Notes under the pieces: model-generated
What the model was told of the DNA's origin: nothing
Seen by the model: only the letters and a program-made list of their open reading frames with translations
Database searches by the model: none
Source: Christensenella sp. UBA7597
GTDB taxonomy: Bacteria > Bacillota > Clostridia > Christensenellales > Borkfalkiaceae
Assembly (NCBI GenBank): GCA_002474405.1
Contig: DLQW01000075.1
Span: forward strand, 1 to 12,717
Length of the DNA stretch: 12,717 nucleotides
Direction: 5' to 3'
In this document: positions 1,257 to 9,204 of the stretch, piece by piece
Numbering within the stretch: the first letter of the stretch is position 1
Layout of the letters: each line of letters opens with the position of its first letter
Program-made: the position numbers and the translations under genes

Positions 1257-2078
1257 ATGAAAAGAGAAAATCTGCATATCAGAGATCCGTTTATCTTCAC
1301 GGAAAACGGAAAATATTATCTTCTCGGCACCACGGGCGACGATTCGTGGGGCAAAGGCAGCGATTTAACGCTGTACGAATCGGCGGATCTTGAAAATTTC
1401 AACCGCGTCTGCGCGCTTGTAACCGACGGTTCGCTTGCAGGCTACACAAATATCTGGGCGCCGGAACTGCACGCCTTCAACGGGAAATACCATCTGATTG
1501 TTTCCGCGTTCAGGGAAGATCTCGGTCGGGGCAGTCTGATTTTAACGTCCGATTCGCTCTTTTCTCCGTTCGGAATGCTTACGGGCAGATACGTTACGCC
1601 CGAAAACTGGGGCTGTCTCGATGCCACGCTGTTTGTGTATCGCGAAGAACCTTACCTGTGTTTTTCCAACGAGTGGCTCACGCCGGTGAGCGGCAACGGC
1701 GACGGCAGCCTGTTTATCGCAAAGCTTTCGCCCGATTTAAAACGCCTTGTCGAAGCCCCGGTAAAAATCGTGAGCGGCAGAAATTGTCCGCTTTCCGTGG
1801 AAATCGGCGACGAACGGAAAGGGTATGTGGCGGAAGGTCCGTTTTTGTATTGCGAAAACGATAAAATCGTACTGCTCTGGTCCACGTTTACGAAAAGCGG
1901 CTATTCCGTGCTGAAAAGCGTCAGCGAATCGGGAATTTACGGCAAATATGTTTTAAAAGAAACGGTATTCGATAAAGACGGCGGACATTGTATGCGCTTT
2001 ACCGATTTAAAAGGAGAAAATCACATCGTCCTGCATCAGCCGAACCGCTCGCCGGACGAACGCCTGAAAATTTTCTGA
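1257..2078 (+). CDS. GH43-type glycoside hydrolase (five-bladed beta-propeller), cytoplasmic
   Basis: A 273-residue protein with no signal peptide, so probably cytoplasmic. Family features are in order: HIRDPFIF with the candidate catalytic base Asp10, WAPELH at 67-72, GCLDATLF with Asp122 as the candidate pKa modulator, and VAEGPFLY with Glu193 as the candidate general acid. The C-terminus has the LHQPN...DER signature seen at the end of short GH43 proteins, so the gene is complete. GH43 members are mostly beta-xylosidases, alpha-arabinofuranosidases or arabinanases; which one cannot be told. An in-frame upstream ATG at 1191 lies inside the preceding gene and has no ribosome site; the ATG at 1257 has GGAGG at 1238-1242 (spacing 14, rather long) and the family's usual N-terminus begins right there. 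Probably co-transcribed with the upstream esterase gene. Confidence 0.85.
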   Translation: MKRENLHIRDPFIFTENGKYYLLGTTGDDSWGKGSDLTLYESADLENFNRVCALVTDGSLAGYTNIWAPELHAFNGKYHLIVSAFREDLGRGSLILTSDSLFSPFGMLTGRYVTPENWGCLDATLFVYREEPYLCFSNEWLTPVSGNGDGSLFIAKLSPDLKRLVEAPVKIVSGRNCPLSVEIGDERKGYVAEGPFLYCENDKIVLLWSTFTKSGYSVLKSVSESGIYGKYVLKETVFDKDGGHCMRFTDLKGENHIVLHQPNRSPDERLKIF

Positions 2079-2097
2079 AAAACAAATATAGCTTTAA

Positions 2098-2129
2098 AAG
2101 AGCCTGCAATCGCCCGATTGCAGGCTCTT
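2098..2129. terminator. Bidirectional hairpin terminator between convergent operons
   Basis: A perfect 15-bp stem (AAGAGCCTGCAATCG at 2098-2112 pairing with 2115-2129). It lies 20 bases after the GH43 stop and about 55 bases after the histidine kinase stop on the opposite strand. The U-tract is clearer for the minus-strand transcript (CTCTTTTAAA) than for the plus strand (CTCTTCAAA), so it probably serves both, best for the kinase operon. Confidence 0.85.
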
Positions 2130-2184
2130 CAAATGGGTTTCGGCGGAAATACATCCCGGAATATGCAAACGAAGCATAGGCAAT

Positions 2185-3549
2185 TTAAAACTCGATTTTA
2201 AACGTTGTGCCGGCGGCGGGGGAAGATTCCGCCGTCAGGCGCGCGCCGTGCAAATCCGCAATGTTTTTCGCTATCGCAAGCCCCAAGCCCACGCCGTCGC
2301 CGGAAGATCGCGATTTATCCGCGCGGTAAAAGCGTTCGAAAACATGCGGCAAATCTTCGGGCGCTATCACGGAACGTTCGTTTTTCACTTCGCACACCGC
2401 GTTTTTCGCGCCGCCCTGCGTATACAGGCGCACCGAAACGGAGCCGCCCGCGGGCTCGTATTTTATCGCGTTTTCAATCAGCACGCCGAAAAGCCGCCGC
2501 AACATTTTTTCGTCGCCGTTCACCACGGCGCCGCTTTCGATTTCCTGTCGCAATGTTATGCCTTTTTCATATGCCGCCGCGTCGAACTGCAGGCAGATTC
2601 CGTCAAGAAGGTACGAAATATCCGTCGGCTTTTTGTCCGCTTTCGTCAGCGCTTCTCCGTGCGCAAGGGCAAGCATATCGCGGATAATATCCGTCATTAC
2701 GCCTATTTCCTCCTGCGAAGATAAAAGCCATTCGCGCTTTTTTTCGTCGCCCGGCGCAGTCGTTTCGGAAAGCAGAATTTTATTGTTCGCGGCAATCACC
2801 GCCAGAGGGGTTTTCAGTTCGTGCGAAGCGTCCGCGATAAAACGTTTTTGTTCTTTGTCCGCTTTTTCCACGGGTTTCACCGCCTGCGCCGAAACGTACA
2901 AGGCAAGCAGAAACGTCAGCGCGATGAAAGATACGTCAAACGCCGCCGCCAGCGTAATTACGCGCGTACGCGCGCTTTTCAGGTACGCGTAATCGGCAAA
3001 TCCAGCGTATATGCCGTCGGCGCCGGCTTTCACGCCGTACACAAGCTTGTATGCCTTTAATACACCCTGCTTTTTCCCGCCGCCGTTTTCCGGCGCGGCA
3101 GGGGAAGCGGGTTTGTTTTCCGCGCCTTGCTCAGATTGCTCTGGGGCTTGCGGCGGCTGCGGTTTTTCCGAAAATTCCGGCGTAATGCCCGCGGCGTTTA
3201 TCGCGGCGGCAACGGCGTTTTCAAGCACGTCGCCCGAAAGACAGAAATCTTCGGAAAGGGTGGTAATCAAAGCTTCGCCGCTTTCCGAAACGGTATATTT
3301 CACCACGCATATTGCGGCGGAAGAGAAATTCTGCGGCGGTTCGGCGCCGATTTCCGTTTTTCCGCCGCCCGTTTCGCCGCCGTTGTCTTTGCGCTCGGCG
3401 GAAGAAATCGCGGTATCGAGGGCGGAATACAGTCCGCGTTCGTATCTTCCGATAAAGTAGGCGGAAACCCCGCACGAAAACAAGACGGAAAACACGCCGA
3501 TGAAAACCGTTACGAAGGTTGCGATTTTTCTGCGCAGTTTTTTAATCAT
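2185..3549 (-). CDS. Sensor histidine kinase of a two-component system
   Basis: A 454-residue membrane kinase. TM1 spans about residues 10-33 and TM2 about 197-221, enclosing an extracytoplasmic region of about 160 residues. That region has a low-complexity Pro/Glu/Gln/Gly linker at about 126-162 and no recognisable sensor fold. There is little room for a HAMP domain: only about 20 residues separate TM2 from the dimerisation helix. The phospho-acceptor is His243 in FIADASHELKTPLA. ATPase motifs are the N box with Asn360 (LIENAIKYEP), the F box near 403-412 (VFERFYRADK) and the G box GDGVGLGLAIAKNI at 417-430. All catalytic motifs are intact. AAGGAGG at 3558-3564, inside the end of the regulator gene, sets the start; the two genes overlap by 8 bases, implying coupled translation. 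The signal is unknown; context suggests cell-envelope or glycan status. Confidence 0.95.
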   Translation of the reverse strand: MIKKLRRKIATFVTVFIGVFSVLFSCGVSAYFIGRYERGLYSALDTAISSAERKDNGGETGGGKTEIGAEPPQNFSSAAICVVKYTVSESGEALITTLSEDFCLSGDVLENAVAAAINAAGITPEFSEKPQPPQAPEQSEQGAENKPASPAAPENGGGKKQGVLKAYKLVYGVKAGADGIYAGFADYAYLKSARTRVITLAAAFDVSFIALTFLLALYVSAQAVKPVEKADKEQKRFIADASHELKTPLAVIAANNKILLSETTAPGDEKKREWLLSSQEEIGVMTDIIRDMLALAHGEALTKADKKPTDISYLLDGICLQFDAAAYEKGITLRQEIESGAVVNGDEKMLRRLFGVLIENAIKYEPAGGSVSVRLYTQGGAKNAVCEVKNERSVIAPEDLPHVFERFYRADKSRSSGDGVGLGLAIAKNIADLHGARLTAESSPAAGTTFKIEF

Positions 3550-4240
3550 TGCCGTTGCCTCCTTCAGCGGAATCGAATTCGCATTTATAACCCGTTTTCT
3601 GATAGTTTTTCAGGCACACGCGAGAACCTAAAAAGCGCAGCTTTTTGCGCAGAAACGAAAGGTACGCTTCCAGCGAATTATCGCCCGCGTCCGAATCCCA
3701 GCCCCACACTTTATCAATCAGGGCGTCTTTCAGAACCAGCGTTCCTTTCGCCGCAAACAGCATTTTCAGAATTTCTTTTTCTTTATAGTTCAGCTTCACG
3801 CTTTCGCCGTCTTTCGTCAGTTCGCCCGAAAGACAGTCGAGTGTGAGGTCGCCGAAAGAAAGTCGGTTCTGCAGCGCGGCGCCGCTGCGGCGCGTCAGGG
3901 CAAAAATCCGCGCAATCAGTTCGTCGCTGTCGAACGGCTTCGGCAGATAATCGTCGGCGCCCGCTTTCAGACCTTTGATTTTATCGGGCACCGAACCCAG
4001 CGCGGTAAGCATAATCACGGGCGTATCCACGCCGTCTTTGCGCAGCGCTTCAAGCACTTCGAAGCCGTTCATTTGCGGCAGCATCACGTCTAAAATAATT
4101 ACGTCGTAACTAGCTGAAAGGGCTTTTTCGTAGCCGCTTTTTCCGTCGTACGCCGTTTCAAGCTCCACGCCGTTTTCTTTAAACAAATACTGCATTGCCG
4201 CGGCAAGCTTTTTTTCGTCTTCGATCATCAATGCTTTCAT
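3542..4240 (-). CDS. OmpR/PhoB-family response regulator
   Basis: A 232-residue regulator. The receiver domain (1-115) has the acidic pair Glu7/Asp8, phospho-acceptor Asp51 in IILDVMLPQMNGFE, Thr79 in IMLTA and Lys101 in DYLPKPFD, so it should be phosphorylatable by the kinase encoded immediately downstream. A winged-helix DNA-binding domain follows (about 127-220), with a recognition helix near DNSLEAYLSFLRKK (187-200). The start has GAGGT at 4252-4256. The promoter lies about 100 bases upstream and carries two TTTAAG half-sites spaced like OmpR-family operators, so autoregulation is likely. A mirror-image copy of the same promoter drives the divergent lipoprotein gene, which is therefore the best candidate target. 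The half-site resembles that of CiaR, but orthology to CiaR is not claimed. Confidence 0.96.
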   Translation of the reverse strand: MKALMIEDEKKLAAAMQYLFKENGVELETAYDGKSGYEKALSASYDVIILDVMLPQMNGFEVLEALRKDGVDTPVIMLTALGSVPDKIKGLKAGADDYLPKPFDSDELIARIFALTRRSGAALQNRLSFGDLTLDCLSGELTKDGESVKLNYKEKEILKMLFAAKGTLVLKDALIDKVWGWDSDAGDNSLEAYLSFLRKKLRFLGSRVCLKNYQKTGYKCEFDSAEGGNGND

Positions 4241-4343
4241 GACGTTTTTTTACCTCTTTTTTGCCCGATTTTTGCCTTTTTTATGTTGATTTTGCGTTGT
4301 TTTTTGTGTGATTTCGGCTGTTTTTTGCCCTGTATTCGCCTAT

Positions 4344-4376
4344 ATTATAGCATATTTTTCTTAAAAAAGCCTTAAA
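4344..4376 (-). promoter_or_regulatory. Promoter of the regulator-kinase operon with TTTAAG direct-repeat operator
   Basis: Read on the minus strand: TTTAAG (4376-4371), five bases, TTTAAG (4365-4360), ten bases, then TATAAT (4349-4344). The second repeat sits where a -35 box would be, and there is no good TTGACA, which is typical of a promoter needing an OmpR-family activator. The predicted leader is about 97 bases, A-rich, and has several GCAAAA runs. Confidence 0.72.
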
Positions 4377-4409
4377 AATCAGCGATTTTTTTGTGTTTTC
4401 GCACGTTTT

Positions 4410-4442
4410 TTTAAGAATTTTTTAAGCTTTGTAAGTTATAAT
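4410..4442 (+). promoter_or_regulatory. Promoter of the beta-helical lipoprotein gene with TTTAAG direct-repeat operator
   Basis: TTTAAG (4410-4415), AATTT, TTTAAG (4421-4426), ten bases, then TATAAT (4437-4442). This is the same spacing, base for base, as the promoter facing the other way. The repeats cover the -35 position. The expected start of transcription is near 4449, giving a leader of about 29 bases that ends in AGGAG (4464-4468) before the ATG at 4478. Confidence 0.74.
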
Positions 4443-4477
4443 CGGGGTACAAAATTCAAAAAAAGGAGACGACTTCG

Positions 4478-6481
4478 ATGAAAAATTCAGGCAAAAAAAG
4501 ATGGACGGCTGCGGCGCTCGCGTTTTTGTTTTTAAGCGGGTTTGCTTTCGCGGGGTGCGATAACTCCGCTTCTTCGGGCGGCACGAACAACGGCGGCGCG
4601 AACAACGGGCAACCGACTCCGCCGGACGGTTCGTTCGTAAATCCCGGCGATCGACTGGACGGTGGCGGCGAAGGCACGCTGCCCGATACGGTGGACGAAT
4701 CGGAAACGGAAAGCGCGGTGATTGCCGCGGGCAAGGTGGATTTATCGGCGCTGAAAGCGGATACCGACGAGACGGGCGCGACGGCGCTGGAGGCGGACGG
4801 CGTGATTTCCGCGGCGGGCACGTATCTTTTAAGCGGCGATTATGCGGACGGCGTTTCGTTTTCCGGCTTGAAAAAGGGCGCGGAAGTGCATCTGATTTTA
4901 AGTGGCGCGAATATTTCCTCTGCGGCGGGCGCGGCGATTGCAAAAAGCGATAAAAAACTTTCGCTTACCGTTACGGCGAAAGACGGCACGACGAACGCGA
5001 TTACGACGACCTGCGACGGCGCCAACGCGGTACACGTGAAAGGCGATTTGTACGTGAACGGCGGCGGCACGCTGGAAATTACGACAAGCGGAGCGGACGG
5101 CAGCGCGGTGAAAGCTTCCGGCAAGTGCTTTATCGTGAACGCCGCACTGAATTTATCGTGCACGAAACACGGCGTTTCCGCGGAAACGGTGGCGGCGGAC
5201 GGCGCGACGATCAACGTGAAAACGGCGGCGAAAGACGGCTTGCACGCGGAGTGCGACTACGATAATTCCGACGGCGATACTTCGGGCGCTTATACGACGG
5301 AAAGCGGCTTTGTGGCGCTGAAAGACGTAACCTACACGTGCAATACGGACGGCGACGGGATTCAGGCGGATACGTTTGCGTATATTTCGGGCGGCACGTA
5401 CGATATACGCACGAACGGGCTGTTTTTAGGCTTTTCTTCCGCGAACATGGCGGAATACGGCGTGGAAGCGGACGATTATCGTTATATTAAAAGCGGCAGT
5501 ACCTATAAAAAGGTAGCGAGCGATTATAACGGCAATATTTCCTCGCGGTATGCCCTGGCGCAAAGCTGCAAGGGCATCAAAGCAGGCGAAATAGAATACG
5601 ATACGGACGGCGACGACGAGGACGATTACAAGGTAACGGACGGCGCCTACGCGATTGTGATTGAAAGCGGCGACGTTACGATAAATTCCACGGACGACGC
5701 GGTTCACTGCAACGGCGGCGATACGTTCATCCGCGGCGGCAACCTTACGATAGATACGTATGACGACGGCATCACTTCCGATTACCTGACCTGCGTGAAA
5801 GGCGGCGACATCACCGTAAATTCTTCGTACGAAGGGCTGGAAGGCGCGTATGTGGAAATTTCGGGCGGAACGATTTCCGTGGTTTCTTCCGACGACGGCA
5901 TCAACGCCGCGAGCGACGATGCTTCGGTGAAAGAATATATTCTGATTTCCGGGGGCGATATAGCGGTGAACGCCGAGGGCGACGGGCTGGATTCCAACGG
6001 CAGCATACTGATGACGGGCGGAACGGTGATCGTGCACGGACCTACGGGCGGCGGCGACGGCGCGCTCGATTCGGAAACGGGCATCATCGTGCAGGGTGGC
6101 ACGCTGTATGCGGCGGGTTCGCTGGGAATGGTGGAAACGCCTTCTTCTAATTCTTCGCAGTATGTGCTTTCGTATGCGCAAAGCAGCGCGATTGCCGCGG
6201 GCACTACGATAACGATTACCGATGCGGACGGAAACGCGCTGTTTGAAACGACGACGGAAAAGAGCTGTCAATCGGTGATTATCTCGCTGGCGGCGTTTGT
6301 TTCGGGCGGCAGCTATACGATTACGCTCGGCGACGGCACGACGGCGACGTTTACGGTTTCTTCCGTGATTACGTCCGTCGGAGCAACCGCTTCCGGCGGT
6401 ATGGGCGGGCAGCCCGGCGCGGGCGGAAACCAACCGGGAGGCAACCGTCCCGGCGGATTCGGCGGGTTTGGCGGTAACTGA
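4478..6481 (+). CDS. Beta-helical carbohydrate-binding lipoprotein (DUF4353/Cthe_2159-like)
   Basis: A 667-residue surface protein. The N-terminus is a lipoprotein signal with FAGC, lipidation predicted on Cys27, followed by a Ser/Gly/Asn-rich tether. From about residue 75 onward it is built of short beta-strand repeats with recurrent GGxI/GGTL turns and acidic corners: DD at 405, DDG at 429, EGLEG at 452, DDG at 472, DGLD at 502 and DGALD at 527. The 20-30-residue spacing is expected for rungs of a right-handed parallel beta-helix with calcium-binding acidic stacks, as in the pectate-lyase-like carbohydrate-binding family DUF4353 (Clostridium thermocellum Cthe_2159 binds polygalacturonate and cellulose). 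A small beta-rich domain follows at about 560-635, then a Gly-rich tail (640-667, GGFGGFGGN end). No catalytic site is evident. Divergent from, and probably controlled by, the adjacent two-component system. Ligand unproven. Confidence 0.85.
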   Translation: MKNSGKKRWTAAALAFLFLSGFAFAGCDNSASSGGTNNGGANNGQPTPPDGSFVNPGDRLDGGGEGTLPDTVDESETESAVIAAGKVDLSALKADTDETGATALEADGVISAAGTYLLSGDYADGVSFSGLKKGAEVHLILSGANISSAAGAAIAKSDKKLSLTVTAKDGTTNAITTTCDGANAVHVKGDLYVNGGGTLEITTSGADGSAVKASGKCFIVNAALNLSCTKHGVSAETVAADGATINVKTAAKDGLHAECDYDNSDGDTSGAYTTESGFVALKDVTYTCNTDGDGIQADTFAYISGGTYDIRTNGLFLGFSSANMAEYGVEADDYRYIKSGSTYKKVASDYNGNISSRYALAQSCKGIKAGEIEYDTDGDDEDDYKVTDGAYAIVIESGDVTINSTDDAVHCNGGDTFIRGGNLTIDTYDDGITSDYLTCVKGGDITVNSSYEGLEGAYVEISGGTISVVSSDDGINAASDDASVKEYILISGGDIAVNAEGDGLDSNGSILMTGGTVIVHGPTGGGDGALDSETGIIVQGGTLYAAGSLGMVETPSSNSSQYVLSYAQSSAIAAGTTITITDADGNALFETTTEKSCQSVIISLAAFVSGGSYTITLGDGTTATFTVSSVITSVGATASGGMGGQPGAGGNQPGGNRPGGFGGFGGN

Positions 6482-6499
6482 ACGCGTCTTTGCGAAATA

Positions 6500-6531
6500 C
6501 GGCGGGGTGTTCGCGCACTCCGCCGATTTTA
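6500..6531 (+). terminator. Rho-independent terminator after the beta-helical lipoprotein
   Basis: A 10-bp stem (CGGCGGGGTG at 6500-6509 with CACTCCGCCG at 6516-6525, one G-U pair) and loop TTCGCG, followed by ATTTTAT. It begins 18 bases after the stop. The U-tract is short. Confidence 0.7.
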
Positions 6532-6608
6532 TATAAAGAAAAACCGAAGGGAAAAAACGGGCAGGGAGCCGAAGGCGGAAGATTGTTTTTTCAGGCGGTA
6601 AAAAGTAT

Positions 6609-6637
6609 TTGACAGGCGCATTGTTTTCCTCTATAAT
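6609..6637 (+). promoter_or_regulatory. Consensus sigma-A promoter of the sucrose/fructan operon
   Basis: A perfect TTGACA (6609-6614), 17-base spacer and perfect TATAAT (6632-6637). Transcription should start near 6644. So strong a core promoter suggests control by repression or in the leader, but no obvious LacI-type palindrome overlaps it. Confidence 0.88.
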
Positions 6638-6644
6638 TGATACA

Positions 6645-6685
6645 TCGCAAACGCGCCGCACGGACGGCGCGGGGACATATTGCGA
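6645..6685 (+). promoter_or_regulatory. Structured 5' leader of the fructokinase operon
   Basis: A nested inverted repeat beginning at about the first transcribed base. The inner stem is CGCGCCG (6652-6658) with CGGCGCG (6665-6671) and a six-base loop; the outer stem is TCGCAA (6645-6650) with TTGCGA (6680-6685). It could be a protein-binding operator, an mRNA-stabilising 5' hairpin or a regulatory element. No T-run follows, so it is not a simple attenuator. Confidence 0.45.
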
Positions 6686-6714
6686 AATGAAACTACGAAA
6701 AGGCGGGGAGACCC

Positions 6715-7656
6715 ATGAAAAAAGTATATGCCGCGGGGGAAGTGCTGATTGATTTTATTGCGGGGCGGAAAGGCGAAGCGGAAAACGCAGGCGTTTTTTA
6801 CCGCAACGCGGGCGGCGCGCCCGCAAACGTGGCGGTGTGCGTAAGCAAGCTGGGCGGGAACAGCGCCGTGATTACAAAACTCGGCAACGATATGTTCGGA
6901 AAATTTCTGAAAGAAACGCTTGAAAAAGCGGGCGTCGATACGAAATACGTACGGTTTACGGACGAGGCGAATACCGCTCTTGCGTTTGTATCGCTGGACG
7001 AAAACGGCGAAAGATCGTTTTCCTTTTACAGAAAACCCTCGGCGGACATGCTTTTAAGCGCCGCCGACGTTGCGGACGTTTCGTTCGATACAACGGACGT
7101 TCTGCATTTCGGCAGCGTGGACCTGATTGACGCGCCCGTGAGAAAAGCGCACGACGCGCTGATAGAAAAAGCGAGAAAAAGCGGCGCAACGGTGAGTTTC
7201 GACCCGAATCTGAGATATTCGCTCTGGAAAAGCAAAGACGAACTTCTTGAAACGGTAAGGCGGTATATTCCGCTTGCGGACGTGATAAAAGTCAGCGAAG
7301 AGGAGCTTGCCGATATTACGGGCGAAGCGGATATGAAAAAAGCGGCGGTTTCTCTCCTCGGCGGAAACGTGAAACTGGCGATCGTTACGATGGGCGCCGC
7401 GGGCGCGACGGCGTATACGAAAGAAGCGGAAGTATACGTTCCTTCCGAAAAGGCGGAACGGGTAGAGGATACCACGGGCGCGGGCGATTCGTTTGTGGGG
7501 GCTACGCTGTATCAGCTGGTGGAAAACGGCTTCGATATTTCCGCCGCCGCGCTGAAAAGAATTTTGACTTACGCCAACAAAACGGCGGGGTACGTGGTGG
7601 GCAGAGCGGGCGCTATCCCCGCGATGCCGGACGGAAAAGAAATCTTCGGAAAATAA
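6715..7656 (+). CDS. scrK: PfkB-family fructokinase
   Basis: A 313-residue ribokinase-fold sugar kinase of the usual length for the family, predicted to transfer ATP phosphate to fructose. The sugar-binding signature GGAPANVA is at 33-40, and the C-terminal PfkB signature DTTGAGDSF starts at 252, with catalytic base Asp258. SFDPNLRYSLW at 161-171 is also typical of fructokinases. The ATG at 6715 has a GGGGAG site at 6705-6710 with only four bases between, unusually tight. It is the first gene of an operon with a GH32 hydrolase 21 bases downstream, which fits fructose released from sucrose or fructans being phosphorylated here. Substrate assignment rests on this context plus the family; related PfkB enzymes act on 2-keto-3-deoxygluconate or other sugars. 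Confidence 0.9.
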   Translation: MKKVYAAGEVLIDFIAGRKGEAENAGVFYRNAGGAPANVAVCVSKLGGNSAVITKLGNDMFGKFLKETLEKAGVDTKYVRFTDEANTALAFVSLDENGERSFSFYRKPSADMLLSAADVADVSFDTTDVLHFGSVDLIDAPVRKAHDALIEKARKSGATVSFDPNLRYSLWKSKDELLETVRRYIPLADVIKVSEEELADITGEADMKKAAVSLLGGNVKLAIVTMGAAGATAYTKEAEVYVPSEKAERVEDTTGAGDSFVGATLYQLVENGFDISAAALKRILTYANKTAGYVVGRAGAIPAMPDGKEIFGK

Positions 7657-7677
7657 GATTTGCAAGCGGGGACGATT

Positions 7678-9204
7678 ATGACGAACGAACATAAAAAAGA
7701 CGATGAAACCTGCCCTGCGGCGGAGGAAAAAACGGAATGCGTTACCGCATTTTCGGTGGAGCGCGCCGACGAATACGTGAAGCGGTTTGCGCCTTCCGTG
7801 GCGAAAAAATACCGCCATACTTTTCATGCGATGCCGCCCGCGGGCTGGATGAACGACCCGAACGGTTTTTGTTACGCGCTGGGAAAATACCACCTGTTTT
7901 TTCAGTTTCATCCGTATTCTTCGGTGTGGGGACCCATGCACTGGGGACATTTTACGACGAAAGATTTTATTCGCTGGCACTGGGAAGGGGTTGCGCTTGC
8001 GCCCGATAAGGAATACGATAAAGACGGCTGTTATTCCGGTTCCGCGGTGGAAAAAGACGGAAAAATGTATCTGTTTTATACCGCGGTGAACGGCGATATT
8101 CAAACGCAGGCGCTTGCGGTTTCTTCCGACGGCGTGCATTTTAAAAAACAGGGCGTTATTCTTTCGGGAGAAAAACTGCCCGCCGATTGTTCGCGGCACG
8201 ATTTCCGCGACCCGTACGTTTTTTTAAGAGACGGCGTATATTATATGCTTTGCGGTTCGCAGGCGAAAGACAAAGACGGGCAGATATTGCTGTTCCGTTC
8301 AAAAGACTGCCTTGCGTGGGAATTTGCGGGGAAACCGATCAAAGACGGAAAGCCGACGAGGGGGATTTACGAATGCCCCTGCGCGTTTACGGCTGACGGA
8401 AAAGACGTGATTATGGCGAGCCCGCAAGGATATTTAAGAGAGGACTGGAGATACGAAAACACCGTTTCGGCGGTATATTTTACGGGAAAAATCGATTTTG
8501 AAAAGGGCACGTTTGCGCGGGAATACGAGGACGAGACGGACGGCGGTTTCAATTTTTACGCGCCGCAGGTTGCCGCGATTCCGGACGGCAGAACGGTGAT
8601 GACGGCGTGGATGCTGCCCGGCTGCATCGAATCGCCCGCGGCGGACGACGGCTGGAAATGCGCGATGATTCTGCCCCGCGAACTCGGTTTGCAAAACGGC
8701 AGATTGGTGCAGTCGCCCGTGAGAGAGATAGAAGCGTACAGAAAAAACGCCGTGCGTTACGAAAACGTAACCATCGGCGAAAGAACGGTTTTAAACGGCG
8801 TCGGCGGCGTGAAAACGGAGCTGATTTTCGAGTTGGAGCCGGGCGACGCGGAAAGGGCGGGCGTAAGGCTGTTTGAAAGCGAAAACAATTACGCCGCGGT
8901 GTATTATTCGAAAAAAGACGGCAAAATCGTGTTCGACCGTTCCGCTACGGGGCTGAACCTTTATTGCGACCCGAACGAAAAGGACGCCGCGTACCGCTCG
9001 GTGAAAACGGAAGAAAAAAACGGGGCGATTACGATGCGTGTTTTTCTGGACGTTTCGTGCTGCGAAGTTTTTGTAAACGGCGGCGAAAGAGTGATGACCG
9101 CCGTCGTTTATACGAAGGAAAACGGCGAGGGGATTTCTTTCTTTGCGGAGGGCGGAAACGCGAAACTCCGTTCGCTGGAACTTTACGATATCTGCGTGGA
9201 ATGA
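7678..9204 (+). CDS. scrB: GH32 sucrose-6-phosphate hydrolase / fructan beta-fructosidase
   Basis: A 508-residue GH32 enzyme without a signal peptide, so intracellular. All three active-site motifs are present: WMNDPNG with nucleophile Asp60, FRDPY with Asp178 (transition-state stabiliser), and YECPCAF with acid/base Glu232. The five-bladed propeller is followed by the C-terminal beta-sandwich typical of the family (about 365-508). A TTG at 7660 is in frame, but the ATG at 7678 is preferred because the GCGGGGA site (about 7666-7671) precedes it at normal spacing. It would release fructose for the kinase encoded upstream. With no PTS sucrose EII gene alongside, the substrate may be sucrose or short fructans rather than sucrose-6-phosphate; sequence alone does not distinguish them. 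Confidence 0.9.
   Translation: MTNEHKKDDETCPAAEEKTECVTAFSVERADEYVKRFAPSVAKKYRHTFHAMPPAGWMNDPNGFCYALGKYHLFFQFHPYSSVWGPMHWGHFTTKDFIRWHWEGVALAPDKEYDKDGCYSGSAVEKDGKMYLFYTAVNGDIQTQALAVSSDGVHFKKQGVILSGEKLPADCSRHDFRDPYVFLRDGVYYMLCGSQAKDKDGQILLFRSKDCLAWEFAGKPIKDGKPTRGIYECPCAFTADGKDVIMASPQGYLREDWRYENTVSAVYFTGKIDFEKGTFAREYEDETDGGFNFYAPQVAAIPDGRTVMTAWMLPGCIESPAADDGWKCAMILPRELGLQNGRLVQSPVREIEAYRKNAVRYENVTIGERTVLNGVGGVKTELIFELEPGDAERAGVRLFESENNYAAVYYSKKDGKIVFDRSATGLNLYCDPNEKDAAYRSVKTEEKNGAITMRVFLDVSCCEVFVNGGERVMTAVVYTKENGEGISFFAEGGNAKLRSLELYDICVE

Follow-up and report, generated by a model that had tools for sequence, protein, structure and literature searches.

Mirrored promoters between a regulator gene and a lipoprotein gene

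Within the window, a stretch of 12,717 nucleotides from Christensenella sp. UBA7597 analysed here as a whole, two promoters of the same design leave one intergenic gap in opposite directions, which raises the question of what protein reads them. The answer favoured by sequence comparison, to which we give a probability of about 0.82, is that the adjacent CiaR-like regulator of the OmpR family likely binds both sites and activates its own operon together with the gene of a Cthe_2159 lipoprotein. The features concerned are the following.

2185..3549, minus strand: sensor histidine kinase gene, overlapping the regulator gene (HisKA and HATPase_c; hydropathy)
3542..4240, minus strand: OmpR-family response regulator gene, likely reader of the boxes (Pfam Response_reg and Trans_reg_C; reciprocal best hit of CiaR)
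4344..4349, minus strand: -10 element TATAAT of the regulator/kinase promoter (read directly from the sequence)
4360..4365, minus strand: proximal TTTAAG box of the regulator promoter (sequence)
4371..4376, minus strand: distal TTTAAG box of the regulator promoter (sequence)
4377..4409, no strand: 33-base stretch separating the mirrored sites (sequence)
4410..4415, plus strand: distal TTTAAG box of the lipoprotein promoter (sequence)
4421..4426, plus strand: proximal TTTAAG box of the lipoprotein promoter (sequence)
4437..4442, plus strand: -10 element TATAAT of the lipoprotein promoter (sequence)
4478..6481, plus strand: Cthe_2159-family beta-helix lipoprotein gene, predicted target (PF14262, 6.1e-44; PDB 4peu/4phb, 9.2e-12)
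6500..6525, plus strand: terminator-like stem after the lipoprotein gene (11 pairs, 8 of them G-C)

Both sites lie in the 237-base gap (31% G+C) between the regulator gene on the minus strand and the lipoprotein gene on the plus strand. As the original prediction had it, TTTAAG-N5-TTTAAG-N10-TATAAT occurs there in opposite orientations, at 4344-4376 (minus) and 4410-4442 (plus), exact in both cases and with 33 bases between the two. The further claim, that this is a common architecture and not a recent inverted duplication, also stands: the 33-base sites are identical at 24 positions, and because only 6 of the 15 spacer bases agree, shared architecture is the better fit and a recent inverted duplication was rejected. 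When the gap was subjected to 20,000 dinucleotide shuffles, the exact bare repeat TTTAAG-N5-TTTAAG appeared on either strand in 17 of them, on both strands in none, and with TATAAT at N10 in none.

No -35 box is recognisable at either promoter, TTGACA being matched at 2 of 6 positions at most with spacers of 15 to 19, and a sigma-70 promoter scan of positions 2000-6800 lists neither. By the usual -10 numbering, the boxes would lie at about -39/-34 and -28/-23. Judged on sequence criteria alone, both promoters resemble the class II activator-dependent type, with a regulator box in place of the -35 element.

The regulator has the two domains of the OmpR/PhoB family, a receiver (3.7e-30) and a winged-helix Trans_reg_C domain (2.2e-13), with a DVMLP motif from residue 51. 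In the kinase, hydrophobic segments at about residues 8-34 and 196-224 flank about 160 residues that have no Pfam match and include a proline-rich stretch. The lipoprotein belongs to PF14262 (150.7 bits against a cut-off of 25.8), and its N-terminus reads ...FLSGFAFAGC, with the lipobox assigned by inspection; the PDB entries that it matches, 4peu and 4phb, are presumably Cthe_2159 itself. According to the accessible part of PMC6712302, members of the Cthe_2159 family are beta-helix proteins with affinity for cellulose and polygalacturonic acid, and the window lipoprotein is predicted to be a sugar-binding surface protein. Terminator-like stems number 13 in positions 2000-6800, against 12.2 expected from shuffles; the one at 6500-6525 is the longest, and its place after the lipoprotein gene suggests a single-gene transcript. 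Farther downstream, a perfect TTGACA-N17-TATAAT at 6609-6637 on the plus strand precedes fructokinase and GH32 genes (6715-9204). Unlike the mirrored pair it has a -35 box, and it is the only sigma-70-type match in positions 2000-6800.

The motif is confined to the window in the source genome

Had the motif been frequent at unrelated promoters without enrichment, the assignment to the regulator would have suffered. The opposite was found: it is rare in the genome, enriched at orthologues of the regulator and accompanied by recurrent gene partners. The source genome was scanned over 1,764,610 bases (1.76 Mb; 86.7% complete), and the bare repeat TTTAAG-N5-TTTAAG has three copies in it, two of which are those in the window gap, while the third, at C20:47205, overlaps the stop of an ORF of 255 codons. 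With TATAAT required at N10 and up to two mismatches allowed, the window's two sites are the only ones in the source genome as scanned. Exactly three mismatches bring four further sites; as a reversed control pattern has nine matches at up to three mismatches, there is no signal beyond the two window sites. The relaxed pattern TTTMAK-N5-TTTMAK-N10-TANNNT adds a single match, C63:6292, which falls within an opposite-strand ORF of 300 codons. A wider regulon within the source genome was rejected, given a third repeat at an ORF stop, a relaxed match inside an ORF and three-mismatch matches that do not exceed the control.

Promoter geometry is conserved upstream of orthologous regulators

Of 396 genomes of the order, 166, among them the source genome, encode an orthologue of the window regulator, defined as a match with E up to 1e-45. 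Among 36 relatives of the same genus there are none (best match, 6.3e-37), and Cthe_2159 was found in 1 of 24 such relatives. As both are rare in the genus, it looks as if the source species acquired or retained regulator and lipoprotein jointly, as one unit.

From the matches in the 166 genomes, 100 orthologue loci were hand-picked, best first and then thinned. TTTAAG-N5-TTTAAG, with at most one mismatch and within 400 bases upstream, occurs at 28 of these loci, compared with 0 to 4 for each of 12 other gap lengths (0-12), and this count by gap length is the result that is free of any box class. A box class, TT[TC][AC]A[GTC] with at most one mismatch, TANNNT as the -10 element and a position within 300 bases, was drawn from the same 100 loci, in which it recovers at N10 61 loci with a site facing the regulator, 26 with one facing away and 20 with both, forming mirrored pairs. 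At the other spacers from 5 to 17 the counts are 0 to 13 facing and 0 to 6 away; 30 shuffles average 0.5 facing, 0.6 away and 0 both per 100 loci. Paralogues, 40 of which were hand-picked from the regulator's matches, served as a second control and have a class site at N10 facing the gene in 2 cases and facing away in 0. One of the two positives, which carries a TTTCAC pair, is the C18 regulator of the source genome itself.

The other 39 orthologue loci have no class site facing the regulator at N10, a few of them owing to N9 spacing. At the closest orthologue (59%, L065), a perfect site points towards Cthe_2159 only, and the regulator side has no canonical pair.

A search blind to the box, accepting any hexamer repeated at a period of 11 and followed at N10 by a -10-like hexamer, matches the facing strand of 50 of the 100 loci, 43 of them with a pair resembling TTTAAG, TTTAAT, TTTCAG or TTCAAG. 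By spacer, it matches 48 loci at N9 and 50 at each of N10 and N11, because reading the repeat in a register displaced by one base changes the spacer as well; since N9 and N11 score alike, this search supports the repeat and not the N10 spacing.

Paired sites were compared in 25 relatives having both at N9 or N10 with no more than two mismatches; excluded were the window and L104 (overlapping sites, spacing -61). The inner gap between the mirrored sites ranges from 6 to 155 bases over these relatives and is 6-15 in eight of them; a fixed looping geometry between the sites was rejected on this range. The two promoters of a locus carry like box variants: they share 10.52 of their 12 box bases, whereas re-pairing sites among loci yields 9.19 (sd 0.26) and in 0 of 5,000 trials a value as high (25 loci, relatedness uncorrected). 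TTTAAT boxes, once TTTAAC, stand at both mirrored promoters of L108, L116, L117 and L131, which share one genus code (g69); at L078, L103 and L106 both carry TTTCAG. On the protein side, residue 187 of the regulator, two residues before the stretch aligned with the recognition helix of CiaR, tops 232 alignment columns for covariation with box positions 4 and 6, and residue 215 ranks second for box position 4; shared ancestry may account for this, supported branches offering only 1 to 3 independent pairs.

Box promoters recur with the same gene partners

A divergent Cthe_2159, VTC, DUF4956, HlyD or MacB gene lies upstream at 15 of the 100 orthologue loci, and where it does, an N10 site facing away within 400 bases is commoner (9 of 15 loci, versus 18 of the 85 others; p 0.0037). 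Crude ORF calls tie a divergent neighbour of any kind weakly to a site facing away (15/40 versus 12/56; p 0.068); such longest-ORF calls are poor in G+C-rich loci, as at L068, where a divergent Cthe_2159 gene was masked by a spurious ORF of 1044 codons. Pfam searches of 10 neighbour proteins, and of 54 out of a list of 72, confirmed VTC, DUF4956, Cthe_2159, HlyD, ABC and MacB domains.

Across the order, exact boxes with TANNNT occupy 54 places in 46 genomes, compared with 8 in 7 for the reversed pattern, and 36 of the 166 genomes with an orthologue have them, versus 10 of the 230 that lack one (counted by hand, relatedness uncorrected; p 1.1e-7). A scan for the exact pattern in about 85,000 named species genomes returned at least 114 stretches, of which 80 loci with 82 sites were readable; genes around them were labelled with profiles built on L066, L105 and the window. 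Among the matches listed, a labelled gene comes first within 600 bases downstream of 40 of the 82 sites, namely Cthe_2159 at 20, VTC at 10, HlyD/MacB at 5, the regulator at 4 and a kinase at 1, and the other 42 have no labelled gene in that range. Upstream, again among the matches listed, a labelled divergent neighbour lies within 600 bases of 5 sites, all 5 with a mirrored class site, and labelled co-directional genes end within 600 bases of 2; a crude ORF call is overlapped by 8 of the 82 sites listed. One of these five, L191, reproduces the window arrangement: its Cthe_2159 and regulator genes diverge from a shared gap in which each side has exact TTTAAG boxes, the inner gap between the sites being 6 bases.

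Other arrangements were seen as well. VTC-DUF4956 operons, often with Cthe_2159, are divergent from the regulator among L066, L078, L090, L103, L161 and L233; at L220, VTC, DUF4956, regulator and kinase genes run in one direction, and at L223 mirrored sites lie between divergent VTC-DUF4956 and Cthe_2159 genes. At L105, L106, L226 and L228, export genes of the HlyD/MacB type that have box promoters adjoin a regulator and kinase. Some exact box promoters have no labelled downstream gene, for example L212 in Streptococcus devriesei, and may belong to csRNA-like genes or be due to chance.

A candidate regulon and its alternatives

Comparative evidence supports the first inference made at this locus, namely that the regulator drives both promoters. 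Upon a signal, the kinase would phosphorylate the regulator, which would then dimerise head-to-tail on each direct repeat (about -39/-34 and -28/-23), replace the missing -35 contact and recruit RNA polymerase. Through the regulator-side promoter the two-component genes would thereby come under positive feedback, and the lipoprotein-side promoter, independent of the other, would make the surface lipoprotein.

Activation is not the only possible outcome of such binding, and OmpR-family regulators are able to repress. The accessible part of PMC8317062 describes Streptococcus pneumoniae manLMN as negatively controlled by CiaR. The window regulator could likewise bind both sites and repress one or both promoters, as a switch, and an inner gap of 33 bases here and of 6-15 in eight relatives makes cross-interference conceivable. 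We regard this as unlikely: the spacing of the boxes is that used to find CiaR-activated promoters, as far as the published account at hand describes it, the lack of a -35 element at both promoters is what activation predicts, and among the 25 relatives the inner gap extends from 6 to 155 bases.

It is less probable still that another regulator reads the boxes and that adjacency is incidental. OmpR-type folds are shared, and the source genome has five matches to the window regulator, itself included; one candidate would be its other OmpR-type regulator, on C18, which has TTTCAC-N5-TTTCAC-N10-TACGTT upstream, within the loose box class. That pair is TTTCAC, however, and not TTTAAG, and the best match of CiaR in the genome is the window regulator, with 144.8 bits against 118 for C18. 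Exact boxes, moreover, are commoner in genomes with the orthologue (36/166 versus 10/230), and class sites face orthologues at 61 of 100 loci but paralogues at 2 of 40. Least credible of all are ordinary sigma-70 promoters with TTTAAG repeats arising by chance or as an A-tract effect, for although the gap is A+T-rich (31% G+C), 0 of its 20,000 shuffles placed the bare repeat on both strands, a -35 element is missing from each promoter, the scan of 2000-6800 lists neither, and the gap-5 repeat recurs in distant loci with negative controls.

With activation of both promoters by the adjacent regulator as the preferred reading, the window is likely one member of a wider clostridial regulon. We lean slightly towards a broader proposal, that a CiaR-related family runs an unrecognised clostridial surface regulon, activating Cthe_2159 genes, VTC-DUF4956 operons and itself, often via mirror-image promoters, and that regulator and boxes (TTTAAG, TTTAAT, TTTCAG) changed together by lineage with both promoters in step. 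A search of the open literature, outside which most subscription papers fall, found no report that ties Cthe_2159 to a response regulator and none of a TTTAAG direct repeat with a response regulator in Clostridia; nor was a wider clostridial regulon of a CiaR-like regulator found in print there; seven papers in it mention Cthe_2159. The box pair with its -10 element at N10 can serve directly as a search key for such a regulon in Clostridia, which include many uncultured lineages. The proposal would link Cthe_2159 and VTC-DUF4956, surface genes that are little understood, to a single two-component system dedicated to them, and their signal and function therefore become testable, while the box variants form a natural set in which to study the joint drift of a regulator and two promoters.

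Comparison with CiaRH and other known systems

Surface gene sets resembling the divergent operons of some relatives have been described: CotH, polyphosphate polymerase and DUF4956 sets adjoin Pel loci (PMC7112168, in the part available), and the operons in question are VTC-DUF4956-Cthe_2159. The window differs in having the Cthe_2159 lipoprotein alone, and the available part of PMC7112168 names no such regulator for these sets.

Another parallel by description is BAS0540-BAS0541 of Bacillus anthracis, a CiaR-like pair with the TTTAAG-N5-TTTAAG repeat upstream of the regulator's own gene. In gel shifts, BAS0540, the nearest CiaRH relative in that species, bound this repeat ahead of both its own gene and an efflux membrane-fusion gene (PMC4938410, in the accessible text), and the HlyD/MacB genes at box sites echo the latter target. 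Unlike the window pair, this one belongs to Bacilli and has a predicted regulon of 23 genes, among whose targets the accessible text names neither Cthe_2159 nor VTC.

The original prediction had likened the repeat to the CiaR box of streptococci, a link now borne out by reciprocal best hits and by the promoter geometry published in PMC3091779, as far as its available text goes. The best match of the window regulator in Streptococcus devriesei is L283 (4.0e-42), whose own best match is the window regulator (2.5e-42); L283 was named CiaR from its recognition helix VVEVYVSKIRKKL, as tabulated in the same source, and has ATTAAG-N5-TTTAAG-N10-TAAACT upstream. The recognition helices are also alike, reading SLEAYLSFLRKKL in the window regulator and VVEVYVSKVRKKL in PMC3091779. 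In that text, csRNA genes were predicted by TTTAAG, five bases, TTTAAG, ten bases and TATAAT, so that CiaRH, like the window, has TTTAAG-N5-TTTAAG ten bases before TATAAT. A further likeness is feedback on the own operon, described for CiaRH in the available part of PMC8317062.

In a tree of 61 regulators, into which every second paralogue was taken, the 22 orthologues placed (the window's included) form a supported group with one regulator each from Clostridium saudiense and Ruminococcus flavefaciens (96, starred). CiaR pairs with a Heyndrickxia regulator (96, starred), and the fork joining the CiaR and orthologue groups has 91, unstarred. Nearer to the orthologues than CiaR are L286 of C. 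saudiense and L298 of S. devriesei, the latter on a long branch and with no class boxes upstream. The window kinase has its best S. devriesei match at C1:330249 (4.1e-33), beside L298 (C1:331492), and the kinase beside CiaR comes second (6.3e-26).

The window regulator thus falls outside the CiaR clade and its kinase is not the counterpart of CiaH, its best match being another kinase; identity with CiaRH itself was rejected on these two grounds. Targets differ too: a regulon of csRNAs and htrA is characteristic of CiaRH, and those published for CiaR include, in the accessible text, csRNAs as well as genes for choline on teichoic acids, whereas in the source genome two sites only were found, one of them at a Cthe_2159 lipoprotein. 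From its sequence, then, the window pair would appear to work like CiaR at its promoters, yet it is not CiaRH.
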